Made by a program: the position numbers and the translations under genes. The notes under the pieces were generated by a model. That model was given only the letters and a program-made list of their open reading frames with translations, was not told the origin of the DNA and did no database searches. From positions 1,911,561-1,975,560 of the forward strand of contig NZ_KE159646.1 of NCBI RefSeq assembly GCF_000403355.2: 64,000 nt of DNA, in the 5' to 3' direction. Shown piece by piece: positions 9,930 to 59,175 of this stretch. Numbering within the stretch: the first letter of the stretch is position 1; each line of letters opens with the position of its first letter. The stretch comes from Adlercreutzia caecimuris B7. GTDB lineage: Bacteria > Actinomycetota > Coriobacteriia > Coriobacteriales > Eggerthellaceae.

Positions 9930-9958
9930 TTGACTTAAAAATATCAATATTTTATATT
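9930..9958 (+). promoter_or_regulatory. hicAB promoter with overlapping palindromic operator
   Basis: TTGACT (9930-9935), a 17-bp spacer and TATATT (9953-9958) make a near-consensus sigma-70 promoter 22 bp upstream of hicA. The spacer holds a perfect palindrome, AAAATAT at 9938-9944 and ATATTTT at 9947-9953. A repressor bound there would block RNA polymerase, as expected for HicB autoregulation. Confidence 0.7.
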
Positions 9959-9979
9959 ATTATCGGACAGGGGGACGGC

Positions 9980-10168: not shown

Positions 10169-10194
10169 ACCCCCTCCGACAGAATCGAGCAGAC

Positions 10195-10653
10195 ATGGGC
10201 AAGTACATCTTCCAGGCCTTTCTCACCCCCGAGGACGAGGGAGGCTATTCCGTCGAGTTCCCCGATCTTCCGGGGTGCTTCTCGTGCGGCGACACATTCC
10301 ACGACGCTGTGGCGATGGGCGCTGATGCCGCCAAAACCTATGTAGCATCGCTTCTCGGCCGCGGAGAAACAGTTCCCGAGCCCCAGCACCACTCGCACCC
10401 CTCCGGCACCGATAGCGTCATGGTGTTCTTCGAAGCCGATCCCACCTACATCGTGGAAGGCGCTGTGATAAGTGCCGCCGAAGCTTCACGGCGCCTCGGC
10501 GTATCGCCGGGCAGAATTACCCATATGCTCGATGCCGGCGTGCTGGACGGCTATCGCGAAGGCCGACGCACCTGGGTCAGCGTTGCGAGCATAGAGAAAC
10601 GCCTATCCGAAACTCCGAAAGTCGGACGCCCGAGAAAGGCTCAGATGGCCTGA
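10195..10653 (+). CDS. hicB: HicB-type antitoxin with C-terminal DNA-binding domain
   Basis: The 152-aa protein starts MGKYIFQAFLTPEDEGGYSV. Its N-terminal HicB partial-RNase-H fold (EFPDLPGCFSCGDT, DAVAMGADA) masks HicA. The C-terminal half, 'ISAAEASRRLGVSPGRITHMLDAG', is a helix-turn-helix of the excisionase/MerR-like kind rather than the more usual ribbon-helix-helix, and probably binds the palindrome in the hicAB promoter. I chose 10195 because the residues before it do not match the family; its ribosome site is weak (GAGCAG). Confidence 0.9.
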   Translation: MGKYIFQAFLTPEDEGGYSVEFPDLPGCFSCGDTFHDAVAMGADAAKTYVASLLGRGETVPEPQHHSHPSGTDSVMVFFEADPTYIVEGAVISAAEASRRLGVSPGRITHMLDAGVLDGYREGRRTWVSVASIEKRLSETPKVGRPRKAQMA

Positions 10654-10705
10654 CGTTCAACCTTAACCCGCCCCGAAAACCAGAGCTTCTCACGAGATTG
10701 GAAGA

Positions 10706-10748
10706 CGCCCGCCTGAAACGTTTGTCGCTTCGGGCGGGCGTTTCGTTT
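10706..10748 (+). terminator. Rho-independent terminator after hicAB
   Basis: A 12-bp stem with one mismatch pairs 10706-10717 with 10729-10740 (CGCCCGCC/GGCGGGCG core) and is followed by TTTCGTTT. It lies between hicB and the convergent citrate synthase gene. Confidence 0.75.
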
Positions 10749-10787
10749 GCGAAATGAAACGGGCGGAGGGCTTCAGCGCCCCCTCCC

Positions 10788-12215: not shown

Positions 12216-12364
12216 GGGGCTCTCCTCTCCCAGCGGGGCCGGCGATGCGGCCGCAGTGTATCAGTGTATTGTACCGTGCGAGCAAGACGCGCCCGCGCCC
12301 AGCCATAACCCCCACCCCGCTCCCACGGCGAACGGTGGCCTTTCAAAAAAGTTTGAAAAAGTCG

Positions 12365-12393
12365 TTGACAAGCCCCGAAGGAGATGGTTAAAT
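12365..12393 (+). promoter_or_regulatory. tRNA-Arg promoter
   Basis: TTGACA (12365-12370), a 17-bp spacer and TTAAAT (12388-12393) lie 20 bp upstream of the tRNA 5' end. The -35 is a perfect consensus. Confidence 0.8.
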
Positions 12394-12413
12394 AGTCGTT
12401 GCTGTTTTGAAGT

Positions 12414-12490
12414 GCGCCGTTACCTCAGCTGGATAGAGGGACTGACTACGAATCAGTACGTCGGGGGTTCGAATCCCTCACGGCGCACCA
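12414..12490 (+). tRNA. tRNA-Arg (anticodon ACG)
   Basis: A complete 77-nt cloverleaf with an encoded CCA. The acceptor stem GCGCCGT pairs with ACGGCGC. The anticodon stem ACTGA/TCAGT encloses loop CTACGAA, giving anticodon ACG, and the T loop is TTCGAAT. A promoter precedes it and a terminator follows. No integrated element is seen at its 3' end. Confidence 0.97.
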
Positions 12491-12504
12491 CTTTGCATCA
12501 TGAG

Positions 12505-12525
12505 CCGCTTTCGAGCGGTTTTTTT
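12505..12525 (+). terminator. Terminator after tRNA-Arg
   Basis: CCGCT-TTCG-AGCGG tetraloop hairpin followed by seven T residues, 15 bp after the tRNA. Confidence 0.92.
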
Positions 12526-12714
12526 GTAGGCCGACCAGAAAGGAACACCGTGAAGGTTCGAAAATCGAAACCTCACAGTATGTAACCTTCCGGCTCCTTC
12601 CCCGTGGCGGTAGTCGGAAGAAACGACTACTGTGCGCTGGGCCTCTGCAGCAGACAGCGCGATAAGCGCCCCGTTTGCCCATTCCTCCCAGCGTTCGCCA
12701 ACGGAGGAACACCT

Positions 12715-14082
12715 ATGCTCTATTTGTCCCAAATGATCGGGGAGCCCGTCGTCGATGCGACCGGCGAGCGCCTCGGCACCATTTCCGACCTGGCCATTTC
12801 CACGGGCGAGGTCTTCCCGCGCATCACGAGCCTGGCCTTCCAGGGCCCCGGGCGCGTGCCCTTCATGATCTCGTGGCGCAAATACGTCGACACCTTCGAC
12901 GAGGACGGCATCACGCTGTCCGTGGATGCCCACGACATCCGTTTCAGCTACCTGCAGCCCGACGAGGTGCTGCTGGCCCGCGACCTGATGGACCGCCAAA
13001 TCGTGGACACCCAGGGCATGAAGGTCGTGCGCGTGAACGACCTGAAGCTGTCCCAATCGGGCACCCAGCTGCGGCTGCTCGGTGCCGAGGTGGGCGTGCG
13101 CGGCATCCTGCGCGGGCTGCACCCCGTGATCGAGCGGGCCGTGGTAAACGTGGCAAAACTGTTCCATAAGAAGGTGGACGAGCAGCTCATCGCCTGGAAC
13201 TACATGGATCTGCTCGACCGCGACCTGTCGGAAGTGCAGCTGTCGGTGACCCACCGCCGCTTGGACGAGCTGCACCCCGCCGACGTGGCCGACATCTTAG
13301 AGCAGCTGGACCCCCAGCAGCGCGCGAGCGTCTTCGAGCATTTGGACGACGCCCGGGCCACCGAGGCCATCTCCGAGATGGAAGACGAGTACCAGGCCGA
13401 GTTCATCGACGATTTGCCCGATGCCAAGGCCGCCGAGCTTATCGGCAACATGGACCCGGATGATGCCGCCGACATCGTGCGCGACCTTCCCTACGAGAAG
13501 GCCGAGACGCTGCTGCGCCTCATGGGCGTGGAGGACGCTGCAGAGATTCGCCGTCTGCTCGGCTACAAGGACGGCACCGCCGGCGGCATGATGACCACTC
13601 AGTTCGTGGCCGTGCCCCGCACCTATACCGTGGGCGACACCATCGAGGTGCTGCGCGCCCTGCCCGACGACCACCCCACGGTGCACTATGTGTACGTCAC
13701 CGACGAGTACGGCAAGTTGCTCGGCGTGAATTCCCTGCGCACCCTCGTTCTCTTCAACGCCGACCGGCTCATGGGCGACATCATGTACGACGAGATCATC
13801 AGCTGCCTGCCCTCCGAAGAGGAGGAGGACGTGGCCGCCGACATCTTCAAGTACGACATTCCCGCCATGCCCGTGGTGGACGAGCACGGCACCCTGCTCG
13901 GCATCGTCACCACCGACGACGCCTGGGATGCCATCGAGGACGACGTGGCCAGCGACAAGACGAAGATGAGCGCCCTGTCCATCGCCGGCATTACCGTGGC
14001 GGTGCTGCTGGGGCTGTTCCTGTACTCGATCATCCTCCTGCAACTGGCCGGCTCGCTGCACATCGGCGGCCTGCACTACTAG
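12715..14082 (+). CDS. MgtE-N/CBS-domain protein with a single C-terminal membrane helix
   Basis: The 455-aa protein starts MLYLSQMIGEPVVDATGERLG, a PRC-barrel-like module (about 1-160). An MgtE N-terminal superhelical domain (ELHPADVADILEQLD, repeats to about 300) and a CBS pair (about 310-420, 'PAMPVVDEHGTLLGIVTTDDAWD') follow. Full MgtE magnesium channels then carry five membrane helices; here there is one ('AGITVAVLLGLFLYSIILLQ'). This is therefore the magnesium-sensing half without its channel. It lies 18 bp upstream of an Nramp-like transporter, so I infer that it gates or partners that transporter. GGAGGAAC precedes the ATG. Confidence 0.85.
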   Translation: MLYLSQMIGEPVVDATGERLGTISDLAISTGEVFPRITSLAFQGPGRVPFMISWRKYVDTFDEDGITLSVDAHDIRFSYLQPDEVLLARDLMDRQIVDTQGMKVVRVNDLKLSQSGTQLRLLGAEVGVRGILRGLHPVIERAVVNVAKLFHKKVDEQLIAWNYMDLLDRDLSEVQLSVTHRRLDELHPADVADILEQLDPQQRASVFEHLDDARATEAISEMEDEYQAEFIDDLPDAKAAELIGNMDPDDAADIVRDLPYEKAETLLRLMGVEDAAEIRRLLGYKDGTAGGMMTTQFVAVPRTYTVGDTIEVLRALPDDHPTVHYVYVTDEYGKLLGVNSLRTLVLFNADRLMGDIMYDEIISCLPSEEEEDVAADIFKYDIPAMPVVDEHGTLLGIVTTDDAWDAIEDDVASDKTKMSALSIAGITVAVLLGLFLYSIILLQLAGSLHIGGLHY

Positions 14083-44266: not shown

Positions 44267-44325
44267 ACAACAGCGCCCCGCCTCGGTGGGGCGCTTTGCA
44301 TATCTCGCTAGAGAATCGAGCCCCC

Positions 44326-46941
44326 ATGACCTCCTTCGCCAATGCCCCCGCCACCTTCACCGAGCCCGACTGCATCGAGATACGCGGGGCGCGGGTGCAC
44401 AACTTGCGGAACCTCACGCTGGCCGTGCCGCTGCGCCAACTGGTGGGCATCGCCGGGGTGTCGGGCTCGGGGAAAAGCTCACTCGCGCTGGGCGTGCTGT
44501 ACGCCGAGGGCAGCCGCCGCTACTTGGAGGCCCTTTCCACCTACACCCGCCGGCGCATCTCGCAGACCGGCCGCGCCGCCGTGGACGAGGTGCTGCACGT
44601 GCCCGCCGCCCTCGCCCTGCGCCAGCGCCCGGGCGTGCCGGGCGTGCACTCCACCTTCGGCACCTCCACCGAGCTGTTGAACTACCTGCGCCTCATGTTC
44701 TCGCGCCTGGGCAGCCACCGCTGCCCCAACGGGCATGCGAACGCGCCCTCGCTGGCCGTGGCCGCCGAGCAGCCCATCACCTGCTCCACCTGTGGCGTGA
44801 AGTTCTACGGGCCCGGCGCCGAGGATCTGGCCTTCAACTCCGGCGGCGCGTGCCCCGAATGCGGCGGCACAGGCGTGGTGCGCGATATCGATGAGAGCAC
44901 CCTGGTGCCCGACCCCACCCTTTCCCTGGACGAGGGCGCAGTGGCCCCATGGCGCCAGCTCATGTGGTCGCTCATGAGCCAGGTGGCCGGCGAGATGGGC
45001 GTGCGCACCGACGTGCCCTTCCAAGACCTCACCCCCGCCGAGCAGGACATCGTTCTGCACGGCCCCATGGAGAAGAGGCACATCCTGTACGTGCCCAAGG
45101 GCAAGGACCACGCCACCGAACTCGATTTCACCTACTACAGCGCCGTGAACACTGTGAAGAACGCCCTGGCGAAAGTGAAGGACGAGAAGGGCATGGCCCG
45201 CGTGGCGAAGTTCCTCTGCGAGTCGGTCTGCCCCGCCTGCCACGGCACGCGTCTGTCGGAGAAGGCCCGCAGCAGCGAGATCGACGGACTGAACCTGGCC
45301 CAGGTGACGGCATTCACCCTGGATGATCTGCGCGACTGGCTGCCCACGGTGGCGCCCTGGCTGCCAGCTGACATGCGCCCCATGGCCGATGCCATCATCG
45401 GCGAGATGCGCGAGCCCATCGAGCGCCTGGGGCAGCTGGGTTTGGGGTATCTCACCCTCGACCGCGCCAGCGAGACCCTTTCCAACGGCGAGCGCCAGCG
45501 CGTGGCCCTAACCCGTGCCGTGCGCAGCCGCACCACTGGCGTGCTCTACGTGCTGGACGAGCCCTCCATCGGGCTGCATCCGGCCAACGTGGAGGGGCTG
45601 CTCGGCGTGATGGACGACCTTTTGTCCGACGGAAACTCGGTGGTGATGGTGGACCACGACGTGGCCGTGCTGCGCCACGCGAATCACCTCATCGAGATCG
45701 GACCCGGCTCGGGCGCCGAGGGCGGCCACGTAATCGCCCAGGGCTCGGTGGCGGCCGTGGAGGCGAACCCGGAAAGCCGCATCGGGCCGTTTCTGGCCGG
45801 CACGGCGAAGGTGCGCGTGCGCACGCCCGTCGCACCTGAGCACCTCTTCGCCGAGGGCGCGATCCGCCTGCAGACGGGGGCCATCCACACAGTGCAGCCG
45901 CTTGAAGCGCGCATTCCCCAGGGGCGTCTCACCTGTATCACCGGCGTATCCGGCTCGGGCAAGACCACCCTCGTGCTGGAAAGCCTCGTGGACGGCCTGA
46001 AGGCGCAGCTGGCGGGGCGGGCGCTACCCGGACACGTGGTGGAGGTCGATGCGCTGGGCATCGCGCGCGTCGATCTGGTGGACGCCACGCCTATCGGCGT
46101 GAACGTGCGCTCCACCGTGGCCACCTACTCCGGCGTGCTGGACGAGCTGCGCCGCGCCTTCGCGAAGCTACCCGAGGCGAAGGCGGCGGGGCTTAAGGCC
46201 GGCGATTTCTCCTACAACACCGGGTCGCTGCGCTGCCCCACCTGCGATGGCACCGGCCAGGTGTCGCTTGACGTGCAGTTCCTGCCCGATGTAGACATCC
46301 CCTGCCCCGATTGCCGCGGAAGCCGCTACGGGCACGAGGCCGAGGCCATTCAGATGGAAGTGGACGACTACCCCGGAGCGCCCAACCCGGCAGAAGGCGC
46401 GGAAGCCGCAGCAGCCGCGCTCCACGAAGGCGATCATGCCGCCGACTTCCACGGCGTGCGCACCCTCTCGCTGCCGGAAATGCTCTCGCTTACGGTGGAC
46501 CAGGCGCTTGCGGCCCTCGCACCCCTGAAGAAGGTGCACGGTAAGCTGGAGATCCTGCACAACCTGGGGCTCGGCTACCTCACCTTGGGCGAGGCCACCC
46601 CGGCCCTTTCCGGCGGCGAGGCCCAGCGCCTGAAGCTCGCCAGCGAGATGCGCCGCAACCAGGACGACACCCTCTTCGTCTTCGACGAGCCCACCATCGG
46701 GCTGCATCCGCTCGATGTGGAGACCCTCATCGGCGTGCTGCAGAACCTCATCGAGCACGGCGCCACCGTGGTGGTCATCGAGCACGACCTGGATATGATC
46801 GCCAACGCCGACTACCTCATCGACATGGGCCCGGGCGGCGGCGAGCAGGGCGGCCGCATCGTCGCGGAGGGCACGCCCGCCCAGGTGGCTGCCAACTCCG
46901 ACAGTCTCACCGGCCGCTACCTGGCAAGGGAGTTGGAATAA
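44326..46941 (+). CDS. UvrA paralogue (class II, excinuclease-ABC-A-like ATPase)
   Basis: The 871-aa protein has two ABC ATPase halves. The first has Walker A GVSGSGKSSLALG (about 50) and signature 'TLSNGERQRVALTRAV'; the second has GVSGSGKTTLVLE (about 545) and 'ALSGGEAQRLKLASEM'. Zinc cysteines occur as CSTCG/CPECGG, CPACHG and CPTCDG/CPDCRG. Housekeeping UvrA is about 940 aa with a fuller insertion domain; this shorter form matches UvrA2-like proteins linked to drug tolerance or DNA-adduct repair. I start at ATG 44326; a TTG at 44296 is less likely. It lies directly outside the integrative element. Confidence 0.9.
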   Translation: MTSFANAPATFTEPDCIEIRGARVHNLRNLTLAVPLRQLVGIAGVSGSGKSSLALGVLYAEGSRRYLEALSTYTRRRISQTGRAAVDEVLHVPAALALRQRPGVPGVHSTFGTSTELLNYLRLMFSRLGSHRCPNGHANAPSLAVAAEQPITCSTCGVKFYGPGAEDLAFNSGGACPECGGTGVVRDIDESTLVPDPTLSLDEGAVAPWRQLMWSLMSQVAGEMGVRTDVPFQDLTPAEQDIVLHGPMEKRHILYVPKGKDHATELDFTYYSAVNTVKNALAKVKDEKGMARVAKFLCESVCPACHGTRLSEKARSSEIDGLNLAQVTAFTLDDLRDWLPTVAPWLPADMRPMADAIIGEMREPIERLGQLGLGYLTLDRASETLSNGERQRVALTRAVRSRTTGVLYVLDEPSIGLHPANVEGLLGVMDDLLSDGNSVVMVDHDVAVLRHANHLIEIGPGSGAEGGHVIAQGSVAAVEANPESRIGPFLAGTAKVRVRTPVAPEHLFAEGAIRLQTGAIHTVQPLEARIPQGRLTCITGVSGSGKTTLVLESLVDGLKAQLAGRALPGHVVEVDALGIARVDLVDATPIGVNVRSTVATYSGVLDELRRAFAKLPEAKAAGLKAGDFSYNTGSLRCPTCDGTGQVSLDVQFLPDVDIPCPDCRGSRYGHEAEAIQMEVDDYPGAPNPAEGAEAAAAALHEGDHAADFHGVRTLSLPEMLSLTVDQALAALAPLKKVHGKLEILHNLGLGYLTLGEATPALSGGEAQRLKLASEMRRNQDDTLFVFDEPTIGLHPLDVETLIGVLQNLIEHGATVVVIEHDLDMIANADYLIDMGPGGGEQGGRIVAEGTPAQVAANSDSLTGRYLARELE

Positions 46942-47017: not shown

Positions 47018-47145
47018 TTTGTGCAGGATTTTGCGATTGGCAGCATCCCATGGCTCTAATTTGTGCAGGATTTTGCGATTGGAAGACTCATTCGAGTCCG
47101 ATTTGGCTTCAGGAGGTCTACCAATCGCAAAATTCTGCACACAAA
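47018..47145. repeat. Direct and inverted copies of a 23-bp repeat (intergenic element D)
   Basis: TTTGTGCAGGATTTTGCG... occurs at 47018-47040 and 47060-47082. An inverted, slightly altered copy lies at 47121-47145. The group fills the gap between the convergent UvrA-like gene and the DUF4405-type gene. There is no ORF and no T-run. Confidence 0.82.
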
Positions 47146-47163: not shown

Positions 47164-47592
47164 TCAACCACTAACCCTTTTTTCCACCTGCGCTTCCCGA
47201 TGACGAAACACCGCCAGAGCCCCTGGTGCGCGCAGAACAACATGCACGAGCAGGGCGGCCAACAGCACCTTGGCGGATAAGGCATGCAATGGGCCCCAGA
47301 AATAGTAGCCCGTCGCATAGAAGCCCAAAGAAGGCAGCAGCGTCCCCGACACCATAGCTCCCGATACGACGCAGAACGCGAGCGCGACCAGCAACGCCCC
47401 GTTGAGCACGCGCTGCGCCCAACGACCGCGGCCGCCCAGGCCTTCACCGCTCGCCACAGCATGGGCAACCATGAGCACGAAGATGCCCGCCCCAAGATAT
47501 TCGTGAAAGGGCACTCCCGTCAACGCCGGGTTCGCCGCCACCAAATAGAGAGCCAGCAACACAATATCGAAAATGACCCTAGGCGCCCGCAT
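47164..47592 (-). CDS. Four-helix membrane protein, DUF4405/cytochrome-b-like
   Basis: The 142-aa protein has four hydrophobic helices. His residues placed within or beside the helices (FHEYLG, VAHAV, GPLHALSAK, LLVHVVL) could bind two b haems, as in small cytochrome-b-type or DUF4405 proteins. It overlaps the upstream gene by 14 bp, so the two form one unit. It probably passes electrons between menaquinol and the partner's extracytoplasmic cysteine motifs. Haem binding is inferred. Confidence 0.65.
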   Translation of the reverse strand: MRAPRVIFDIVLLALYLVAANPALTGVPFHEYLGAGIFVLMVAHAVASGEGLGGRGRWAQRVLNGALLVALAFCVVSGAMVSGTLLPSLGFYATGYYFWGPLHALSAKVLLAALLVHVVLRAPGALAVFRHREAQVEKRVSG

Positions 47593-48004
47593 GCCGCTCC
47601 CCTTTCGACAAACGACGCGATACCACCCAAAGGCCCAGCACCAGCACTACGGGCATGAGTATCCACAGATTCAAAGACATGTCGGAGGCCTGGTGGTAGC
47701 GCCCCGCGAGCGTCTCCCACCCATGACACTCAACCGATGTGCAGCCAGCCTCGGGGCAGCGCATCTCGCTGCGCCCGTCGGGCTCGGGAACGGCGTCGTA
47801 TCCGTGGCATGCGCCGTTCGTGCAACCCGCTACCGGACAAGCAGCGTCAGCCGTCAGGGGATGCAGCCCCGAATCCGGCGCAAGCGCAAACCCCACCCCC
47901 AGCGCACCGACCAGAACGGCACCTACGACCGCAGCGGCCAGCAGCCTCTTTCTCGCCGACCTTTGCCCCCGCGACCGCTTAGCTTCTTTCGAACTCAAAT
48001 TCAC
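47579..48004 (-). CDS. Two-helix membrane protein with two CPxxGCTxxxCHG motifs
   Basis: The 141-aa protein has a membrane helix near residues 23-41 and another near 110-128. Between them, probably outside the cell, are two motifs 14 residues long: CPVAGCTNGACHG (about 56) and CPEAGCTSVECHG (about 83). Each contains C-x4-C-H, a known though uncommon c-haem attachment spacing. The start is GTG at 48004, with AAAGGG upstream. It is encoded with a multi-His membrane protein, just after the molybdopterin oxidoreductase operon. Other metal binding is possible. Confidence 0.6.
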   Translation of the reverse strand: MNLSSKEAKRSRGQRSARKRLLAAAVVGAVLVGALGVGFALAPDSGLHPLTADAACPVAGCTNGACHGYDAVPEPDGRSEMRCPEAGCTSVECHGWETLAGRYHQASDMSLNLWILMPVVLVLGLWVVSRRLSKGERHAGA

Positions 48005-48039: not shown

Positions 48040-48071
48040 AAGAGCCGCAAGCTGCGGGGCCTGCGGCTCTT
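48040..48071 (-). terminator. Hairpin after the nrfD-type gene
   Basis: AAGAGCCGCA (48040-48049) pairs with TGCGGCTCTT (48062-48071), 35 bp after the nrfD-type stop, separating that operon from the two-gene membrane unit. Confidence 0.75.
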
Positions 48072-48105: not shown

Positions 48106-49308
48106 TTAGGCGACCTTCTCCTTAAGGTGCAGGGGGAGGTACTTCAGACCCAGTAGCAGCAGGAAGCCGCCGAGGGCCACGACACCGGCCGCCACGCCGA
48201 ACTCCAGGGGCGTCGGCCAGTACACGAGGCCCTGGTAGCCGAGAAGCGACATGCCGGAGTCCCAGTTCGTGATAGTCATCTGGTTGGCCACGTCGGCGAA
48301 CTCGATGTTGGGAATCTGGAAGCCACCCACCAGAATCTCGCAGCGCTTGCAGAACACGCCGGCGATCACGAGCGCCGAGGCTACAACCACGCCGCCCTTG
48401 GTACGCAGACGAGGCACGAACAGGATGACGCAGGCCAGCACCATGCAGGCGATCTGCGTCCAGAAGAACGGCGCCAGAGGCTCGGTCACGAGCATGGCCA
48501 CCACATCGGCGCCCTCACCGCCGGGAAAGCCGCTCGTCAGCAGATCGCAGGCGAAGAAGTACAGATCAACGCAAGTGAACACCGCGAGCATCTTCGCAAG
48601 GTTCACCATGGAGGAGCGCTCGATGGAAAGCCGCCCGGCCTTCTGCAGGGCGATGACGACGACGAGCACGAGCGCCGTACCGCAATCCAGCGCAGAGGCC
48701 ACGAACCACGGGCCCATAAGGGCGGTGTGCCAGAACTCGTGGGCCGCCGACAGCGAGAAAATCCAAGCCGTCACTGTGTGCACGCCCACCGCCACCACCA
48801 GAGCAATGATGGAGATGACGCGGATGGCGGTGTGCGACATCTTCCCCTCATCCTCGCGCCGGTAGGCCCACAGGTACACGATGGAGAGAATGAGGTAGGT
48901 GGAAAGCACGATGATATCCCACATGAGCGGCGATGAAAGGTTGGAATAAACGAACAGCTCCCACAGGCGCAAGGGACCGCCCAAGTCAACCACCACAAAG
49001 CCGATGGCCACGCAGGTGCAGCAGATGCTCGTCCAAATGGCCACCCGCGAGATGTCCCCGAAGCCCTTCATGCCGAAGGCGTTGGGGATGGAGCTGATGA
49101 TAAGGCCGCCAGCGGACAAGCCCACGAAGAACATGAACAGGGTGATGTAAAAGCCCCAGGAATCAAGGTTGCGCATGCCGGTCTGAATCATGCCGCCGGA
49201 AAGCTGCACCATCCACAGGGCAACGCCGATAACCGCCACGACCGCGCAAGCGATGATCCCCACGGTCAGTCCGCGATGGGACGCGGCGCTTCCTTTCGCA
49301 TCGTTCAT
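48106..49308 (-). CDS. NrfD/PsrC-type membrane anchor subunit
   Basis: The 400-aa protein has about ten hydrophobic helices and begins MNDAKGSAASHRGLTVGI. It is an NrfD-like quinone-interacting subunit that links the exported molybdopterin enzyme to menaquinol. Family-like stretches are 'FVGLSAGGLIISSIPNAFG' and 'LSSPLMWDIIVLSTYLILS'. GGAAGGGAG precedes the ATG at 49308, 14 bp after the Fe-S subunit. It is the third gene of the complex. Confidence 0.9.
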   Translation of the reverse strand: MNDAKGSAASHRGLTVGIIACAVVAVIGVALWMVQLSGGMIQTGMRNLDSWGFYITLFMFFVGLSAGGLIISSIPNAFGMKGFGDISRVAIWTSICCTCVAIGFVVVDLGGPLRLWELFVYSNLSSPLMWDIIVLSTYLILSIVYLWAYRREDEGKMSHTAIRVISIIALVVAVGVHTVTAWIFSLSAAHEFWHTALMGPWFVASALDCGTALVLVVVIALQKAGRLSIERSSMVNLAKMLAVFTCVDLYFFACDLLTSGFPGGEGADVVAMLVTEPLAPFFWTQIACMVLACVILFVPRLRTKGGVVVASALVIAGVFCKRCEILVGGFQIPNIEFADVANQMTITNWDSGMSLLGYQGLVYWPTPLEFGVAAGVVALGGFLLLLGLKYLPLHLKEKVA

Positions 49309-49322
49309 AGCGTACTCCCTTC

Positions 49323-49943
49323 CTAGACGAGATAGTAGACAGAGGGCTTGGTGCCGAACTCGGTGTGCAGCTGCGTGTACTCGCGGCTGGCCAGAAGCCT
49401 GGACACCTCGGAGTTCGGATCGTCCAGGTCGCCGAAGTGGCGGGCACGACCGATGCAGTCGGCCACACAAGCCGGCTGCTCGCCGCGAGCCACGCGCTGG
49501 GTGCAGAAGATGCACTTCTCCACGGTGTGCTTCTCGTGTTTGGCGGCATCGGCGTCGCCCAGGGCGAAGTCGGCGTAGTAGGCCGGTTCCTCCCAGTTGA
49601 ACGAGCGGACGCCGGTGTAGGGGCAGGCGGCCACGCACATGCGGCAGCCGATGCACTTGTCGTAATCCTGGCGCACAATGCCCGTCTGCTCGTCCTTCCA
49701 GGTGGCGCCCACCGGGCACACCTTGGTGCAGGCCGGATTCTCGCAGTGCTGGCAGGCCACGGGCCAATGCTGCATCTCGGGGTTGTCCCAGGTGCCCCCG
49801 GCCGTATCCGGGGCATTGCCGCCCTCGGTGAGAACGCGATTCCAGATAATGTTGTTGGGAATGTTGTTGGCCACTTTGCACACGACCGAGCAGGTCTTGC
49901 AGCCAGAGCAACGCTTTAGGTCGATGACCATTCCGTATCTCAT
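49323..49943 (-). CDS. Four-cluster iron-sulfur subunit (DmsB/PsrB type)
   Basis: The 206-aa protein MRYGMVIDLKRCSGCKTCSVVC... carries four [4Fe-4S] motifs: CSGCKTCSVVC, CQHCENPACTKVCP, CIGCRMCVAACP and CIFCTQRVARGEQPAC. It carries electrons between the catalytic subunit and the NrfD anchor. It has no export signal of its own and is probably carried out with the Tat-exported catalytic subunit. GAGGAGGAAC sets the start at 49943, which is 16 bp after the catalytic gene. Confidence 0.94.
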   Translation of the reverse strand: MRYGMVIDLKRCSGCKTCSVVCKVANNIPNNIIWNRVLTEGGNAPDTAGGTWDNPEMQHWPVACQHCENPACTKVCPVGATWKDEQTGIVRQDYDKCIGCRMCVAACPYTGVRSFNWEEPAYYADFALGDADAAKHEKHTVEKCIFCTQRVARGEQPACVADCIGRARHFGDLDDPNSEVSRLLASREYTQLHTEFGTKPSVYYLV

Positions 49944-49959: not shown

Positions 49960-52446
49960 TTATTCCTGAGACTCCGCCACCACGCCGTCCCACGGCTCAA
50001 TTTCCACGAGGCAATCGTGGTAGGAGTAGGTGGGGCAGGTCCAGTCCACAATCTGCTTGCTCGTCAGGTCGTTATTGCAGCCGCTTATGTACTGGGAGCG
50101 CTGCCAGCCGCGGTCGATATCCAGACAGCCCGGGCGAATACCGGCGCTGAAGGTGGCCTTGGCCACCGCATGGCCACGGTCGTTGAACAGGCGCACGTAG
50201 CTGCCGTCCTCGATGCCGCGCGCCTCGGCATCGACGGAATTGATGCGCACGCAGGGCTCGTTGATCTCCATCTCGCGCAGCAACGGGTTCTGACCGTAGT
50301 AAGAATGCACGCGGAAGCGGCGGGTGCCGGCGGTCACGATGAGCGGATACTTCTCCGCCAGAGGATTGGTGTCGAAGCCGCCGGCCGTGACGGGCCACGC
50401 CTCCATGGGCGGTTCCCAATGGGGCAGCGCGATGCTCGCGGGATCCATGGGCTGGCCATAGTTCTCGATGGGGCCCGGGTTCTCCTGATAGAACTGCAGC
50501 TTGCCCGTCATAGTCATGTAGGCCGGCATAGGAACGGCGCCCACGTACATCACGCCGGCTTCCTTCAGCTTGTCGGCATCGATGCCCATAGCAGCTCCCA
50601 TGGCCGTGTTCACCACGTGCTTCATGCCCTCGTCGAACTCTTCCTGGAACCACTCGTCCAAGCCGAGCCCGCGCCCGATGAGGTTCGCCATGTCGTAGTC
50701 GGACTTGGCCTCGAACTTCGGCTCGATGGCCTTATCGGCCCACACGAGACAACCATTCATGCCGATGGGACCGCCTACCTCTTGAATGGTGGCCGCGGGC
50801 AGCACGATGTCGGAAATGTCGGCCGTATCACACCACTCGATGTTGGCAGTCACAAGGAAATCGAACTTCTTGTACGCCTCGATGGTCCTGTTACGGTCGG
50901 GAGCTGAGTTCACGATGTTCGCACCGAAAGAGATGAGCATCTTGAGCGGTTGTTCTACCGTGACATCGGGAAGCTCCATCACTTGCTCGCCCATGTGCGC
51001 GGTCACGCCCGGAAATGTGTATTCTCCCGTGTCGAGCAGGTCGTTGAACATAAAGGTACCCAGCGACTGGACGATGGCGGGATGCTCGGTTTCCGTCTCA
51101 TCGAAGCCGCTGGAATTAAGCGGGTAACTCATACGGGGCTCAGGCACCATACCGCGCATAATACGCAAAACGCTCACTGCCGCAATGGTATTGAAACCGT
51201 GCCCGTAATGGTCGATGCCATAGCCTTGGAAGATGTCGGCCATGCCAGGACGGCAAAGTAGGTCGGCGAAGGTGCGAATGGTTTCCTCGGGAACGGTGGT
51301 CACCTCGGACACCATCTCGATGGGATACTCGCTGATGCGGTCGATGAGCAGACTGTAGGCCGTATTGCAGCGCTGGCCGGCGACCTCGATGCCCTTCTTG
51401 CGCAGCACGGGGTTCTGCGCCGTGGAGGCGTAGCCCATGGCATTCGTGGCCTCGTCCCACACGGCAAAGTCGTCGGCATCGGCCGCCACGCCCTCTTCCA
51501 AGTCGCTCTTGCGCAGGAAGCGGCCGTCGGACTCCTTCACGAGGAACGGGGCGCAGGACTTCTGCTGCATGAAGGCATCATCCGTCTTGCCCTCTTCCTC
51601 GATGATCTTCGCCAAACCGAGAGCGAGCGCGGCATCGGTGCCGGGCTGCAGCGACACGAACAAGTCGGCCTTCTGTCCGATGGTGTTCTTGTTGGGGTCG
51701 ACGACGATGAGCTTGCAATCGTTATTCTCAATCGCGTCGGCGATGTAGTGCCAGGCGTTAGGCCAGGACACGATGGGGTTATGGCCCCACACGACAAAGG
51801 TGCTCATTTGGGAGACGAGATCCATGTCGGCGCCGCCCTGATAGTAGAAGCCGCCCGCCGTGTACATGGTACCCTGCGTGAGCGCGAAGTCGGTGGTGCG
51901 GTTCTGGTGCGAGAACTGGGCCACGTTCTCCAAACGGTTGAGATTGTACATGTTGCGAGGCTCGGTAGTGCCGTAGGTGAAGGAGCACACGCTGCCCGAG
52001 CCGAATTCTGCCTGGTACTCCTTGATCTTCGTACAGATGGTGTCGATGGCCTCGTCCCAGCTGATGCGCTCCCACTGACCGGCGCCACGCTCGGTGCCCT
52101 CGGCGCGCTTCATGGGGTACTGGATGCGCTTCTCCTGCACGATGAGCGTGGGGATGGAGGCGCCGCGGGCGCACATGCGCTTCTGGTCGATGGGCGCGCC
52201 CTCGATCTCCTTGGCGCGCGTGAGCACCACGTTGCCGTCGCGCACCACGGCCTCCAGCGGACAACCCATGCAGGCGTTGCAGTAGGTCGTGCAGATCTTC
52301 TCGTCGCTTTGGGCCGAAGCCGTCTTGGGCGTAAGGGCCGCGAACCCCGCAGCCGAAACGCCGCCCGCAACGAGCGCGGCCGCGGCCGTGGTCTTGAGGA
52401 ACCCTCTTCGCGTTAGAGCTCCCGTCGTGTTCTGAACAGGCTCCAA
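49960..52446 (-). CDS. Exported molybdopterin oxidoreductase catalytic subunit (DMSO reductase family)
   Basis: The 828-aa protein has Tat motif TRRGFLK and a signal ending in TASA-Q. The N-terminal Fe-S motif is CTTYCNACMGC ... MCARG. Moco-binding segments include 'SFTYGTTEPRNMYNLNR', 'WGHNPIVSWPN', 'LIVVDPNKNTIGQKADLFV', 'ANIEWCDTADISDIVLPAAT' and, at the C-terminal cap, 'TAGTRRFRVHSYYGQ'. With the Fe-S and NrfD subunits it forms a menaquinone-linked terminal reductase or dehydrogenase outside the membrane. The substrate is not readable; gut Eggerthellaceae use such enzymes for S/N-oxides and catechols. A LysR gene lies upstream. Confidence 0.92.
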   Translation of the reverse strand: MEPVQNTTGALTRRGFLKTTAAAALVAGGVSAAGFAALTPKTASAQSDEKICTTYCNACMGCPLEAVVRDGNVVLTRAKEIEGAPIDQKRMCARGASIPTLIVQEKRIQYPMKRAEGTERGAGQWERISWDEAIDTICTKIKEYQAEFGSGSVCSFTYGTTEPRNMYNLNRLENVAQFSHQNRTTDFALTQGTMYTAGGFYYQGGADMDLVSQMSTFVVWGHNPIVSWPNAWHYIADAIENNDCKLIVVDPNKNTIGQKADLFVSLQPGTDAALALGLAKIIEEEGKTDDAFMQQKSCAPFLVKESDGRFLRKSDLEEGVAADADDFAVWDEATNAMGYASTAQNPVLRKKGIEVAGQRCNTAYSLLIDRISEYPIEMVSEVTTVPEETIRTFADLLCRPGMADIFQGYGIDHYGHGFNTIAAVSVLRIMRGMVPEPRMSYPLNSSGFDETETEHPAIVQSLGTFMFNDLLDTGEYTFPGVTAHMGEQVMELPDVTVEQPLKMLISFGANIVNSAPDRNRTIEAYKKFDFLVTANIEWCDTADISDIVLPAATIQEVGGPIGMNGCLVWADKAIEPKFEAKSDYDMANLIGRGLGLDEWFQEEFDEGMKHVVNTAMGAAMGIDADKLKEAGVMYVGAVPMPAYMTMTGKLQFYQENPGPIENYGQPMDPASIALPHWEPPMEAWPVTAGGFDTNPLAEKYPLIVTAGTRRFRVHSYYGQNPLLREMEINEPCVRINSVDAEARGIEDGSYVRLFNDRGHAVAKATFSAGIRPGCLDIDRGWQRSQYISGCNNDLTSKQIVDWTCPTYSYHDCLVEIEPWDGVVAESQE

Positions 52447-52607: not shown

Positions 52608-53513
52608 TCAGTCCTTCCAGAGGACGAAATCTTCTTTGCCGCTGAAAAACCGCAGCAGATAGGGGTCGCCGAGCCCCTTCTTCGCAATGGTGCAGTAGAA
52701 CCATTTCATGGGAGCCTCTTCAAGAGGAATGCACACCACGTCCGGAGCAACACGGGGAAACTTCAGATCGCGGTAGGCGTAGGTGAGCGTCACCCCGGTT
52801 TGCACCATTTCGAGCCGATTGTGCAAACCCGAACGCGTGCACACAATGTTAAGCTTGACACCGCGCTCTTCGGTCGCCTCCACCAGGCGATCATGCACAT
52901 CGAATCCAGCTCCTTGAGAGGTGAAGGGGCGTCCTTCCAAATCCTCGAGACGTATGAAGCTTTTCTCAGCAAGGGGATCATCAGTACGGACGGCGATGTG
53001 GATGCGTCCCCCAATGGCCGTGTCGTAATCAAAGAGGGACTCGTTCACCACTGTGGCGATAAGACTCGCATAATCAAGATCGCCCTCAAGGATTTGTTGG
53101 CGCAGCTCCACGCAGTTTGCTTCGGTGAAGCGCATTCCCTTGGTCACGAGCTCGCTTGTCGAGGAAAAGTCGATGACCTGTCTCATCTCGCCCGAGGTCA
53201 TAACGTCGCTTGCCTCCACCGATTGACCGAAACGCACGATCCCTTGGCTCTTTAGCTTGCCGAGGTTCAGCTCGACCTCCATTTGTGCGAACGCACTCAA
53301 CACCGGACGCGAGGCGCTGAACAGAAGGTCGGCCGCGGCCGTGGGAAAAAGCACGTTGCCCCGATTCTCGAACAGCGGCTCCCCCATTTCCTGAGCCAGC
53401 CGCGCCACCGACTTGCGCAACGCTTGCCGTGAAATGAACAGAGAATCGGCCGCCTGCGTGAAGCTGCGCATCTCATAGACCCGAGAAAAGTACTTGATCT
53501 GCTGAATATCCAT
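52608..53513 (-). CDS. LysR-family regulator, probably of the molybdopterin operon
   Basis: The 301-aa protein begins MDIQQIKYFSRVYEMRSFTQ; its winged helix is 'AADSLFISRQALRKSVARLAQEMGEPLFEN'. The periplasmic-binding-like effector domain follows ('GIVRFGQSVEASDVM'). It lies in the same direction 161 bp upstream of the catalytic gene. GAGGAGGGG sets the start at 53513. The effector is unknown. Confidence 0.9.
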   Translation of the reverse strand: MDIQQIKYFSRVYEMRSFTQAADSLFISRQALRKSVARLAQEMGEPLFENRGNVLFPTAAADLLFSASRPVLSAFAQMEVELNLGKLKSQGIVRFGQSVEASDVMTSGEMRQVIDFSSTSELVTKGMRFTEANCVELRQQILEGDLDYASLIATVVNESLFDYDTAIGGRIHIAVRTDDPLAEKSFIRLEDLEGRPFTSQGAGFDVHDRLVEATEERGVKLNIVCTRSGLHNRLEMVQTGVTLTYAYRDLKFPRVAPDVVCIPLEEAPMKWFYCTIAKKGLGDPYLLRFFSGKEDFVLWKD

Positions 53514-53674
53514 AGCCCCTCCTCGTGCCGTGCGGCTCCGATCGGCCATCGCAGCCCGACGAGCCTTCCTCCGCAGCAATCCAATACGATGGAAGGCCCG
53601 CATGAGGACGGGCCTTCCATCGATGCCAGCTCGCTAAAGCTTAACATCCCAAACAGTATGCGCGCTACGACTTT

Positions 53675-54558: not shown

Positions 54559-56139
54559 TTACGCAAGTGGCTCCAGCGTCACCACGTGCTGACCGGCGAT
54601 GCGTCCCGAGGTGTAGGTCCAGCCGAGCGCCTGGCCGCAGCCGGCGTTCACCTTGCCCTTGAAGCCGCCAACCATGTTGCCCACCGCGTACAAGCGCGGG
54701 ATAACCTCACCGAACACGTTGAGCACCTGGGTGTTGGTGTTCACGTCAACGCCACCGGCCGTATCGGGCGAGACGGCGATAACGCGACCAGCGAAGAACG
54801 GGGGCTGCGTCAGGGGCATTGCGTTCTGGCGACCCAGGGCATCGGCTCCGGAGGCCGCACCCTCGTTGAAGTCGTCAATAGTCTTCTTAAGAGCGTCCGT
54901 GTCCAAATCAAGGGCTGCCGCCAACTCTTCCACGGTGTCGGCCTTGACGACATAGCCGCCGGAAAGCTCTTCCTCGAACCCGTCACTACAGTACATGATC
55001 GGCCCTCCGAAATCAGCGGTCGCATCCGCGAGACCCTGATCCCAGATGTTCCACACATAACCGTTCGGCTGCTTCCAAACATCGCCCACCACGTTCTCGG
55101 TGGGACGACCGCTCTCCAGAACGTGGCGCTGGCCGTCAGTAGAAACAAATATACCCGGCATGGAAATGTAGCCTGCGGAATTATCCTCAACCTTGCGCTC
55201 CAGACCAGGGGCCACATTGTAGGCGCACCAAGGATTCACCAGCTTGGCACCGAGCGCACAGGCCATCATAATGCCGTCGCCCTGCTGCCACGGCGAGCCA
55301 TAGGAGCCCATGACGGGGCGGTCGTTAAACATGCCCGGCATGGCCGGCGACATGAAGCTACGCACCATGTCGGCGTTGCGGGAGAAACCGCCCGTGTTCA
55401 GGATGACGCCCAGACGCGCCTTGATGCGCTGCTCCTTGCCGCCATCTGCGACGATAACGCCCTCCACCTCGCCGTCAGCGTTGGTCAGCAAACGCGTGAC
55501 CTGGGTATCGAACATGAATTCCGCACCTTGCTCCTCAGCCTTTTTGCGCAGCGGCTCGGTGAAACCAGCGCCGCTGCCATCGGCGTTCTGGTGCATGCGG
55601 GCCACGGCGGGCGTCACATCGGTGTAGTAGTCCACCATGGTACCCTGGGTCGACAGGCGCTCAGTGGAAAGAGCCGCGCCCTGCTCGGCTAGCCAATCGA
55701 TGGTCTCGCCGGACTTCTCGGCGTACAGACGGCGCAGCTCGGGATTCTCGAAGCCCTCGGCCACAGCCGTCAGGTACTTGTCGAACTCCTCGACCGAATC
55801 ATCGATGCCGGCCTCTTTCTGCAGCTTCGTGCAAGCACCCTGAATCATACCGGCGCACAGGGCTGAATTGGACATGGTGGCGCTGCTCATCACTTCGCAC
55901 ACGACAACTTCCTTGCCCGCCGCAGAGACCTCAACAGCCGCAGCCAGGCCACCGCCGCCGGCGCCGGCGATCACAACGTCCACTTCTTTGTCCCACGCCG
56001 AATCGCTCGTGGAGCTCAGTTCCTGAGAAGCGGACGTTTGGGGCGCGCAACCAACCATGCCGGCAAAAGCGGCGGCTCCACCCATGAGAGCCGCGCCCTT
56101 CAAAAAGCTGCGACGATTGAGCCCTTCGTTCAGATTCAT
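54559..56139 (-). CDS. Exported FAD-dependent reductase (fumarate-reductase/flavocytochrome-c flavoprotein type), Tat lipoprotein
   Basis: The 526-aa protein has Tat motif NRRSFLKG and lipobox MVGC. The dinucleotide fold DVVIAGAGGGGLAAAVEVSAAG binds FAD. The C-terminal segment 'VIAVSPDTAGGVDVNTNTQVLN ... GRIAGQHVV' is the FAD/substrate region of the fumarate-reductase flavoprotein family. No FMN-binding or haem domain is attached, so an outside electron donor is needed. A LysR gene is divergent upstream and a SnoaL-like lipoprotein lies downstream. Substrates may be unsaturated acids or other electron acceptors. AAAGGGGA sets the start. Confidence 0.9.
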   Translation of the reverse strand: MNLNEGLNRRSFLKGAALMGGAAAFAGMVGCAPQTSASQELSSTSDSAWDKEVDVVIAGAGGGGLAAAVEVSAAGKEVVVCEVMSSATMSNSALCAGMIQGACTKLQKEAGIDDSVEEFDKYLTAVAEGFENPELRRLYAEKSGETIDWLAEQGAALSTERLSTQGTMVDYYTDVTPAVARMHQNADGSGAGFTEPLRKKAEEQGAEFMFDTQVTRLLTNADGEVEGVIVADGGKEQRIKARLGVILNTGGFSRNADMVRSFMSPAMPGMFNDRPVMGSYGSPWQQGDGIMMACALGAKLVNPWCAYNVAPGLERKVEDNSAGYISMPGIFVSTDGQRHVLESGRPTENVVGDVWKQPNGYVWNIWDQGLADATADFGGPIMYCSDGFEEELSGGYVVKADTVEELAAALDLDTDALKKTIDDFNEGAASGADALGRQNAMPLTQPPFFAGRVIAVSPDTAGGVDVNTNTQVLNVFGEVIPRLYAVGNMVGGFKGKVNAGCGQALGWTYTSGRIAGQHVVTLEPLA

Positions 56140-56239: not shown

Positions 56240-56262
56240 TTTCATGATGGCTTTTCGTGAAA
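56240..56262. promoter_or_regulatory. LysR-box candidate between divergent genes
   Basis: TTTCA (56240-56244) and TGAAA (56258-56262) form an interrupted palindrome in the 204-bp divergent region between the flavoprotein gene and its LysR. The form and place suit a LysR site. Confidence 0.35.
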
Positions 56263-56343
56263 TCCGATATCGCCGTCTCGGACGTCGTGCTCTTGCTTTG
56301 CGCAACATGCGATAATGCAAAAAAGCAAGGGAGGAGGTTCGCT

Positions 56344-57279
56344 ATGAGAACCGAGTACTTGCGAGAGTTCGTCGTTTTCTCTCGCTACTTAAGCTTCACC
56401 GATGCCGCCAAAGAGCTGTTCATCGCCCAATCAACGCTAAGCACCCATATTGCTGCGCTCGAGAGCGACGTGGGCTTTTCGCTCATCGACCGGAAAGCGG
56501 GCAACCGACTCACCGATAAAGGGGCCGTTTTTCTCGACGGAGCCCGAACACTGCTGGATGAACTCGACGAGACACTGGCACGGTGCCGAGAGATGGGCGA
56601 TCCTGACGCCACTCTTCGCATCGCTGTTCAATATCCAACTCCTCTTTTTGCGACCAAACTTAAAGAGCGGCTGCCCATGCCCTTTGCTTTCGTCGATCAC
56701 GATTACCGAGATCCCATCTTCCAGCCCATCGCCAATGGCGCGGCCGACATCGTGCTCGATTACGACTACACGCCTTTTGCCTCACTCGTAAAGGAGGCGA
56801 GCGCTCTCGATCTGGTAACAAAAACGTGTTTGGCCTTCCGCATGAGTATCAGCATGATGGCGTCGAATCCCCTGGCAAGCAAGTCCGCGCTTTCGCGCAA
56901 TGACCTTCGCGGCGCATCCATCATCATCAACGATGCCCACAATTACGACCGCATCCGCTATCTTTACGAGCGCATGTTAGGCGACAATCTGAATCTGCGC
57001 TTCAGCCTTCAGCCCATCAACGGCATGAGCGGCCTGGCCTTCGCCACCTACGGCGATAGCCTCCACATCTGCGGGCTATCGGAAAATCGCCACTGGTTCG
57101 CCGACCGCGCCGACGTGGCGCTCTTCGAAGAACTGGACGGAAAGCCTTTCGGCATGCCCACCTCGCTCACGTATTCAGCTGACGCCAGCGATTGGGTGCG
57201 TGAAGGTGCAGCCATCATTCTCGAGTGCATGGAGGCTTGCAGAAAGGAAAACGGACTCGCAGCTACAGGAATCGCTTAG
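56344..57279 (+). CDS. LysR-family regulator, divergent to an exported flavoprotein gene
   Basis: The 311-aa protein begins MRTEYLREFVVFSRYLSFTD, with winged helix 'AAKELFIAQSTLSTHIAALESDVGFSLIDR'. The effector domain 'ATLRIAVQYPTPLFATKLKERL' is divergent from better known members. It lies back to back with the 54559-56139 gene, the classical LysR arrangement, and upstream of a second flavoprotein gene. GGGAGGAGGT sets the start; a 29-codon upstream extension is not conserved. Confidence 0.9.
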   Translation: MRTEYLREFVVFSRYLSFTDAAKELFIAQSTLSTHIAALESDVGFSLIDRKAGNRLTDKGAVFLDGARTLLDELDETLARCREMGDPDATLRIAVQYPTPLFATKLKERLPMPFAFVDHDYRDPIFQPIANGAADIVLDYDYTPFASLVKEASALDLVTKTCLAFRMSISMMASNPLASKSALSRNDLRGASIIINDAHNYDRIRYLYERMLGDNLNLRFSLQPINGMSGLAFATYGDSLHICGLSENRHWFADRADVALFEELDGKPFGMPTSLTYSADASDWVREGAAIILECMEACRKENGLAATGIA

Positions 57280-57585: not shown

Positions 57586-59175
57586 ATGGAACAGAATTCT
57601 CTGCAGCAGGTTTCGCGCAGGAACTTCATGAAGGGCGCCCTGGTCGCCGGTGCGGCCACGGCCGCCATGGGGCTGGCCGCCTGCAGCCCCAGCAGCCCTA
57701 GCGACGCCGGCAACCTGGCAGACACAGGCTCTGCCTCGTCGGTCGATTGGGATCAGGAAGCCGACATCGTCATCGTAGGCGGCGGCACCGGCGGCTCGTG
57801 CGCAGCCCTGGCCGCTGCGGAAGCCGGCGCCTCGGTTATCGTCATTGAAGCCAACAATTCCATCGGCGGCAGCGGCGCGCTCTGCGGTGGCGCCATCGTA
57901 GGCGCCGGCACAAAGATGCAGGCCGAAGCTGGCATCGAGGGCGACAACGGCGACGCGCTTCTCCGCGACACCCAAGCTTCCCTGGAGGCTATGTTCGGCC
58001 CCGACCACGTAGAGCATGTCGGCGATGACTGGTGCATCACCGAGCTTCATTGCGCCGAGGCGGGTAATACGGTCGACTGGCTGGTGGAGCACGGCGTAGA
58101 CATCGTCGGCCCCTCCCAGCAGCCGGGTCAGCCTGTCGCTCGACTGCACATGCTTTACCCCGATGCATCGGCATGGCCCTCCGTAATTCAACCTCAGCTG
58201 GAAGAGGCCGGAGTCGATCTCAAGTTCAACACGAAGGGCGCCGAGCTTATTGTCGAAAGCGGCCGTGTCGTTGACGTGAAAACCGAAGGTGCCAGTGGAT
58301 CATACTACAAGGCCAATAAGGGCGTCGTCATGGCGACAGGATCCATCGAGGCCTCGAAAGAGTGGCGCAAAAAGATCTACACCCTCGCCCAGTCCAATGT
58401 CGAAGCCTCCAATAAGCTCAACGACGGCACCGGTATCCGCATGATGTGCAAAGTGGGCGCCGACACCACTGAGTATACGGCCATGGCAGCCGCGCCGGCT
58501 CTGTTCTGCACGGCCGGCAACGCTTCGCATTGGTACGAGCTGCTCATGAACCAGATGGGTGCCATTCTCGTCGATTCTCAGGGCAAGCGCTTTGCCAGTG
58601 AGAACACGCCCTCCGGCGAGATGCTTCTTACCGTTGACGCGCTGACCGACCGCCAGGCTTTCCTCGTGTACGACGCGGCCATCGCCGAGACTCCTGAAAT
58701 GAGCACGCAGCCGATGCTCACCATCCGCGGCTCCGGCTATGGCCCGTTCTCCGAGCTTGAAGGTCAGGAGGGCAAGGTCTTCTTCGGCGACACCATCGAA
58801 GAGGTGGCCGAAGCCGCCGGCGTGGATCCAGCGGGCCTCGCGGCGGAAATCGAGAAGTACAACGCGAATGCCGCCGCAGGAAGCGATCCAGACTTCGGGC
58901 GCACCAACTTTGGCATCGCAACGGCCGGCCTCACCAAGCCTCCCTACCGCATTATCGGCCCGGTATACGCAACGGTCATGTCGGGCGCCTTCGGTGTGGG
59001 CGTCACCGACAAGCTTGAGGTGCTGGACACCCTGGGCGAGGTCATTCCCGGCCTCTATGCCACGGGCGAAGGCGCTCATGGCCTTGCGAAGGACTTCCTC
59101 ACGGGGGCAGGCGGCAAGTTCTCTTGGGCGCTGACCTCCGGTCGCCTCGTGGGGAGCTACCTCGCTTCGCTCTAA
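57586..59175 (+). CDS. Second exported FAD-dependent reductase, Tat lipoprotein
   Basis: The 529-aa protein has Tat motif SRRNFMKG and lipobox LAAC. The FAD fold is DIVIVGGGTGGSCAALAAAEAG. The C-terminal segment 'YATVMSGAFGVGVTDKLEVLDTLGEVIPGLYATGE ... TSGRLVG' is of the fumarate-reductase flavoprotein type. Like its neighbour it lacks haem and FMN domains. The two are clearly different in sequence and likely use different acceptors. TTTAGGAGGAGG precedes the ATG. A broken LysR gene lies convergently downstream. Confidence 0.9.
   Translation: MEQNSLQQVSRRNFMKGALVAGAATAAMGLAACSPSSPSDAGNLADTGSASSVDWDQEADIVIVGGGTGGSCAALAAAEAGASVIVIEANNSIGGSGALCGGAIVGAGTKMQAEAGIEGDNGDALLRDTQASLEAMFGPDHVEHVGDDWCITELHCAEAGNTVDWLVEHGVDIVGPSQQPGQPVARLHMLYPDASAWPSVIQPQLEEAGVDLKFNTKGAELIVESGRVVDVKTEGASGSYYKANKGVVMATGSIEASKEWRKKIYTLAQSNVEASNKLNDGTGIRMMCKVGADTTEYTAMAAAPALFCTAGNASHWYELLMNQMGAILVDSQGKRFASENTPSGEMLLTVDALTDRQAFLVYDAAIAETPEMSTQPMLTIRGSGYGPFSELEGQEGKVFFGDTIEEVAEAAGVDPAGLAAEIEKYNANAAAGSDPDFGRTNFGIATAGLTKPPYRIIGPVYATVMSGAFGVGVTDKLEVLDTLGEVIPGLYATGEGAHGLAKDFLTGAGGKFSWALTSGRLVGSYLASL

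Follow-up and report, generated by a model that had tools for sequence, protein, structure and literature searches.

Membrane complexes with an NrfD-type subunit usually work without haem b, and anchors of this type are reportedly treated as haem-b-free, going by the title of a 2008 review listed among the references of PMC13059093. How such gut-bacterial reductases draw their electrons from the membrane is, to our knowledge, little described. Alternative complex III and QrcABCD resemble the operon described here in combining NrfD, FeS, and c haems; we know of no haem-b subunit in alternative complex III. Reductases of the PsrABC, DmsABC, and TtrABC type, as well as the catechol dehydroxylases of Eggerthella, share with it a molybdenum subunit, a ferredoxin, and an NrfD-type anchor within one operon, and Tat export. 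Unlike the present operon, QrcABCD has six c haems but lacks haem b according to a table in the available part of PMC8076601, which lists no haem subunits for PsrABC, DmsABC, and ArrABC. For the catechol dehydroxylases, the available part of PMC7028382 describes ferredoxin and membrane-anchor partners and contains the word 'cytochrome' once, in a reference, and the available part of a review of gut molybdenum enzymes holds nothing on haem-b partners.

The same kinds of parts as in the present operon are found in DsrMKJOP, which in the available part of PMC8076601 comprises the NrfD subunit DsrP, the ferredoxin DsrO, the membrane subunit DsrM with two b haems, and the outward-facing trihaem cytochrome c DsrJ. 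A further described relative concerns one subunit only: according to the available part of Huang et al. 2024 (PMC11334425), a DUF4405 protein of another bacterium is a haem-b cytochrome, as judged by its colour and absorption spectrum.

The operon in the window and its two terminal genes

The window, i.e., the whole stretch of 64,000 nucleotides from Adlercreutzia caecimuris B7, carries on its reverse strand five genes in the order Tat-exported molybdoenzyme (A), ferredoxin (B), NrfD, doubled-motif protein (CH), and DUF4405 protein. A sequence-only reading had taken the last two for a stand-alone module serving nearby reductases; this view has to be given up, the pair being genes 4 and 5 of an operon that itself encodes a reductase. 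Gene A (49960..52446) encodes a DmsA-like catalytic molybdopterin subunit of the DMSO-reductase superfamily (PF00384, PF01568, PF04879) with a twin-arginine leader, read by eye; among the 25 of 29 NCBIfam models listed for it, all lie far below their cut-offs, and no known substrate subfamily is indicated. Gene B (49323..49943; 206 aa) encodes a DmsB/PsrB-like 4Fe-4S ferredoxin subunit with several Fer4 models over the cut-off (best PF13247, 72.8 bits), which we take to hold four clusters, as in its family. The third gene (48106..49308; 400 aa) encodes the NrfD-type quinone-reactive membrane subunit (PF03916, E=4e-46), whose best match among solved sequences is subunit C of alternative complex III (6btm_C), three others being titled polysulphide reductase NrfD. 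Its best NCBIfam match is DsrP (NF045798), at 152 bits against a cut-off of 350. The genome contains this five-gene operon three times, each time with A, B, and NrfD: there are three CH genes, the two extra copies being 64 and 61% identical to that of the window, and four DUF4405 matches, three of them over the cut-off, each beside a CH gene. The CH motif occurs at three of the 12 NrfD loci of the genome, in a stretch of about 3.8 kb around each.

Despite the general likeness to DsrMKJOP, including a DsrM/DsrJ-like layout, there are differences: the operon possesses a molybdenum subunit instead of DsrK, no gene for which is among its five genes (the other loci were judged by the profiles of A, B, NrfD, CH, and DUF4405 only), and DUF4405 stands in place of DsrM. 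DsrJ has three haems, whereas CH has two Cx4CH motifs, and the likening of CH to DsrJ and of DUF4405 to DsrM is one of description only.

The CH gene (47579..48004, reverse strand) starts with GTG and encodes a putative dihaem c-type subunit of 141 aa. Its hydrophobic segments comprise residues 21-39 and 111-129, and in between are motif 1, CPVAGCTNGACHG (47801..47839; C56, C61, C66, H67), and motif 2, CPEAGCTSVECHG (47720..47758; C83, C88, C93, H94), both on the reverse strand. The loop holds ten D/E and three K/R residues, the two ends eight and four K/R; because of this acidic loop and these K/R-rich ends, the loop is predicted to lie outside, which gives a predicted layout of cytoplasmic N-terminus, membrane helix, outward loop with two CPxxGCxxxxCHG motifs, and second membrane helix. 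Two cysteine motifs of the same pattern between two membrane helices, as first noticed in the window sequence, are thus seen in CH, and they are kept among its relatives: 79 of 83 CH proteins possess both, which argues against a chance pattern, and the four with one motif comprise two cut at contig ends, one with an internal deletion, and one true single-motif protein. Among the 158 motifs of the 79 proteins, the spacing between the second cysteine and the third with its histidine is x4 in 151, x6 in six, and x5 in one, and that between the first two cysteines is 4 or 5. In an alignment of 63 CH rows, including two partial ones and one with a deletion, the six cysteines and two motif histidines show no substitution and are gapped in at most three rows. 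Met81 is kept in 60 of 62 rows but His104 in only 35 of 63, and no further histidine is conserved as a distal ligand in the 63 rows. Each motif thereby has, in CP, a third unvarying cysteine; classical c-haem motifs do not possess one. One CH protein (L113, 7432-7710) carries a single motif of hybrid form, which looks like the product of an in-frame deletion joining motif 1 with motif 2 but could also be an assembly collapse.

CH has no match in Pfam up to E=1 and nothing above the cut-off in NCBIfam, where its matches lie far below; a profile search of solved structures was empty as well, so that CH belongs to no known cytochrome c family of these two collections. The AlphaFold2 model of CH, built from the rows of the window, L013, and L014, was unusable (pLDDT 52.7, pTM 0.28).

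The partner gene (47164..47592, reverse strand), overlapping CH by 14 bp, encodes a protein of 142 aa with about four membrane helices that matches PF14358 (DUF4405) with 30.1 bits at a cut-off of 26.7, a match to Ni_hydr_CYTB lying below the cut-off. His30, His44, and His103 are present in 63 of 63 rows and His117 in 62. They form the pairs His30/His44 and His103/His117, the members of a pair being 14 residues apart, the spacing known from cytochrome b of complex III, and are predicted to constitute two sites for haem b, located close to opposite membrane faces. Concerning the suggestion of four helices with well-placed histidines, the histidines are borne out by at least 62 of 63 rows, whereas the helix count is less uniform: a crude hydropathy rule finds four segments in 61 of 82 relatives but three in 19, and three also in the protein of the window, and an AlphaFold2 model of low confidence (pLDDT 63.1, pTM 0.43) has four long helices. 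A Foldseek search of the PDB with this low-confidence model gave nothing at E<=0.001, and a profile search of solved structures no matches. As far as the available part of Huang et al. (PMC11334425) goes, the published DUF4405 cytochromes belong to the same Pfam family, share the four conserved histidines, and are likewise encoded beside outward redox proteins; unlike the window's protein, with about four helices, a CH partner, and a molybdoenzyme, they are described as having six helices and are associated with ApbE and flavinylated carriers.

Regarding haem attachment, the genome possesses a Ccm system I cluster, in which CcmE (PF03100), CcmF, and CcmB are encoded together with an ABC ATPase and another protein of the Cytochrom_C_asm family (PF01578); an NrfA-type cytochrome c552 adjoins it. 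Within the family, PF01578 is matched in 48 of 49 CH-positive and in 68 of 89 CH-negative genomes (Fisher p 0.0005, a value that ignores kinship). The sole CH-positive exception (G017) concerns a stretch of 10.0 kb that partly matches another genus: three pieces, of 4.2 kb (92% identity), 1.3 kb (97%), and 0.3 kb (86%), align within one stretch of a single genome; judging from these matches, a misbinned contig or a recent transfer would explain it. With a pair of Cx4CH motifs in the loop predicted to face outward and a haem-attachment system in the same cell, CH is a putative c-type cytochrome. The Cx4CH spacing had been called rare, which is fair in general but less so here, where three multihaem cytochromes of the same genome, with five CxnCH sites each, contain one Cx4CH apiece; one is also present in the six-site multihaem cytochrome of the operon at L131 (see below).

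Occurrence, gene order, and divergence

A profile built from five CH proteins matched 49 of 138 genomes of the window's family, in 20 of 48 genera. In a sample of the phylum it matched ten of 396 genomes, seven of them in this family; the three matches outside it had E-values of about 5e-4 to 7e-4 and looked like chance matches. With a profile of 58 CH proteins, 49 matching genomes were obtained among 396 drawn from the class, of which 44 belong to the family, three to a second family of the order, and two to other parts of the class, and a search of genome contigs with one protein alone yielded two Adlercreutzia loci only (Adlercreutzia hattorii and Adlercreutzia sp. ZJ176). The family search gave 86 matches, from which 60 stretches were taken first and 13 later, together with the three of the window's genome, nine matches being left out; the counts of 63 and 83 loci exclude L013 and L014, which duplicate L059 and L060.

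CH and DUF4405 occur together in all 63 first loci. In 57 of these they are preceded, on the same strand, by A, B, and NrfD, with all five genes in order; conservation of the pair beside reductase operons had been proposed as a check. The six loci without the full set (L061, L073, L087, L111, L112, and L115) end at a contig edge. Among the 83 loci, A, B, and NrfD are all upstream in 71; the contigs of L135, L136, L139, and L142 leave less than 1.4 kb ahead of CH; L131 and L132, without A, B, and NrfD, represent another gene context. DUF4405 is matched at E<=1e-5 in 82 loci and by a looser cut-off only in L144, at a contig end. It follows CH in 81 loci, at a distance between the matches of at most 20 nt in 64 of 82, and precedes it in L132. 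Between NrfD and CH, eight of the 79 loci with NrfD show a wide gap of 0.9-1.6 kb; six of these gaps contain a radical-SAM gene, that of L133 a TorD-like gene, and that of L090 nothing clearly recognisable as a gene.

Genes of this radical-SAM family (PF04055 in two members tested) accompany the operon in 18 of the 83 loci, on the same strand as CH: between NrfD and CH in six (L072, L078, L081, L082, L096, and L097), behind DUF4405 in seven, and upstream in five. One of those outside the gap between NrfD and CH is situated at 1433-3211 of L005.

In distant relatives, the arrangement differs. In L131, from another order of the class, the pair follows genes for a Tat-exported flavoprotein (FAD_binding_2), a multihaem cytochrome, and NuoL/antiporter-like and NuoH-like proteins; all genes of this operon (7143-13560) share a strand and are separated by no more than about 250 bp, and within the stretch examined the profiles found no A, B, or NrfD and no other complex I genes were recognised. 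In the order of G533, four of 69 genomes matched. L132 has DUF4405 followed by a one-motif protein of 74 aa, L168 DUF4405 followed by a two-motif protein, L169 DUF4405 fused to two motifs that are separated by a K/T/A-rich linker of about 75 residues, and L170, cut by a contig end, DUF4405 fused to one motif; no profile match to A, B, and NrfD was obtained in the stretch examined of these four loci. The fusions, which come from another order of the class, suggest joint action of DUF4405 with the motif protein, and the single-motif versions suggest that each motif is a unit.

Over 67 complete sets, pairwise identities have medians of 0.36 for A, 0.67 for B, 0.69 for NrfD, 0.58 for CH, and 0.46 for DUF4405, and the rank correlation of identities amounts to 0.66 between NrfD and CH, 0.64 between CH and DUF4405, and 0.34 between A and CH. 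Since the catalytic subunits have diverged and the electron-transfer genes are better kept, these sequence comparisons suggest that one electron-transfer module may serve enzymes for different substrates. In a tree of 73 NrfD proteins with CH and six without, the smallest clade containing all 73 (support 0.88) also holds four of the six, such that the CH-associated clade is not exclusive; two of these four are from the CH-bearing loci L078 and L080, and two are NrfD genes of the window's own genome.

Role of the pair in the operon

We consider it probable that CH and DUF4405 form the cytochrome arm of a respiratory oxidoreductase of the DMSO-reductase type, an enzyme that would have five subunits, be bound to the membrane, and be linked to menaquinone. 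Gene order, unvarying cysteines and histidines, the DUF4405 match, topology by charge, and the fusions all point to this, the cofactors being deduced from sequence features. In such a complex, DUF4405 would hold two b haems, one near each membrane face, and CH would carry two c haems at the outer face, one per Cx4CH motif, attached by Ccm; as an electron path, the two would connect the menaquinone pool with the outside face. This is also where the molybdenum subunit and the ferredoxin would be located, with NrfD binding menaquinone near the outer face, in line with family knowledge and with the available part of PMC8076601 on NrfD-type complexes. Counting the quinone site that NrfD itself possesses, electrons would enter the complex at two places in the membrane, as proposed for DsrMKJOP. 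The least certain step is the direction, which we suppose to be more commonly outward, with different acceptors reduced by different catalytic subunits. A menaquinol-to-outside electron path, as proposed initially, is accordingly in agreement with the operon context as the likeliest role, though as part of this complex rather than as an independent module.

The system had also been thought undescribed, which applies to one half of it: DUF4405 is already known as a haem-b family, whereas CH is without a family match, and no paper on the doubled-motif family was found in the open-licence literature, where none joining Eggerthella and DUF4405 was found either. If catalytic subunits only about 36% identical share a cytochrome arm, this would indicate a respiratory chassis common to them and would help to predict which reductases feed the proton-motive force. 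Moreover, an NrfD operon with a likely haem-b subunit of its own makes the question of two quinone sites testable outside sulfate reducers.

Some observations do not fit this cytochrome arm equally well. Among them are the wide gap between NrfD and CH in eight loci, the hairpin between these genes in the window (see below), and the usual lack of haem b in NrfD complexes. The pair occurs without A, B, and NrfD, in the stretches examined, in L131, L132, and L168-L170, which for L132 and L168-L170 is also what would be seen if CH and DUF4405 were co-expressed with the reductase as a side-branch that passes electrons to soluble or wall-bound acceptors outside, like the flavinylated partners elsewhere. 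The association of DUF4405 with flavinylated outside carriers in other bacteria (PMC11334425, available part) and the tether-like design of the K/T/A-rich linker of L169 would suit such a branch; the linkage to A, B, and NrfD in loci of the Eggerthellaceae type and the divergence shared with NrfD favour a subunit instead, and we regard the side-branch as unlikely.

Other counterpoints to the cytochrome arm concern the motifs themselves, namely the third cysteine, the lack of a conserved distal ligand, and the x5 or x6 spacing in seven of 158 motifs. With three cysteines and one histidine each, all unvarying, of which the third cysteine is superfluous for haem c, and with a spacing that tolerates insertions, the CPxxGCxxxxCH motifs might be sites for zinc or another metal, or redox disulfides passing electrons or oxidising equivalents to DUF4405. 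The context is, however, that of cytochromes throughout (the haem-b partner, the multihaem cytochrome of L131, and the co-occurrence with Ccm), the fusions with DUF4405 speak against such sites as well, and the single-motif proteins of L132 and L170 do not suit a disulfide between the motifs; motifs free of haem thus seem quite unlikely. The sequence-only reading had named zinc or an empty motif as what would overturn it.

As a rival view, the pair might be an energy-converting arm: NrfD and DUF4405 would provide quinone sites on opposite faces, and part of the quinol electrons would cross back via the b haems, making the reductase electrogenic in a manner like a Q cycle. The two histidine pairs 14 residues apart, the presence of NrfD in the same operon, the NuoL- and NuoH-like subunits standing in L131 where NrfD would, and the quinone cycle proposed between DsrMK and DsrJOP (PMC8076601, available part) are consistent with this, but both the quinone site of DUF4405 and the coupling to charge are hypothetical, and we hold the proposal to be decidedly unlikely. 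The same low standing applies to its extension, a speculative one, in which CH and DUF4405 would be a transferable energy-conserving arm (dihaem-b/three-cysteine dihaem-c) that couples different exported reductases to charge movement. Its partners would be of a molybdenum type with NrfD or of a flavin type with NuoL/NuoH-like subunits, as in L131; gut and other Coriobacteriia would gain proton-motive force from the reduction of many organic compounds, and CPxxGCxxxxCH would constitute a new class of c-haem motif with a functional third cysteine. That CH and DUF4405 are assembly or redox-sensing factors of the molybdoenzyme and carry no electrons might be suggested by the TorD-like and radical-SAM genes, possibly maturation genes, that some of these operons contain; it is hardly credible in view of the four near-invariant histidines and the demonstrated haem-b relative, which argue for electron transfer.

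Sequences within and around the operon

The gap between NrfD and CH in the window contains a 10-bp inverted repeat (48040..48071, reverse strand) followed by TTTTGTT on the coding strand, a possible attenuator; judging from the sequence, this hairpin may uncouple the expression of the two genes. A terminator-like match of five pairs lies at 48045-48057, and such sites, four in number against a mean of 4.8 in shuffled sequence, are not in excess. Upstream of the operon, FAD_binding_2 proteins are encoded at 54562-56139 (reverse strand) and 57586-59172 (forward strand), the second with a Tat signal match, and genes for LysR regulators (52611-53603 and 56257-57276) are their neighbours; these flavoproteins are probably the nearby exported reductases that the pair had been supposed to serve. 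Convergent with the operon, a large UvrA-like protein is encoded at 44296-46941 on the forward strand (UvrA_DNA-bind, PF17755, over the cut-off), and a gene of the phage-integrase family (PF00589; 38175-39449, reverse strand) is situated less than 10 kb from the operon. Downstream of DUF4405, at 47018-47143 of the window, the sequence TTTGTGCAGGATTTTGCGATTGG is present in three copies, two direct and one inverted; none is expected by chance, and none occurs elsewhere in the window at up to three mismatches.
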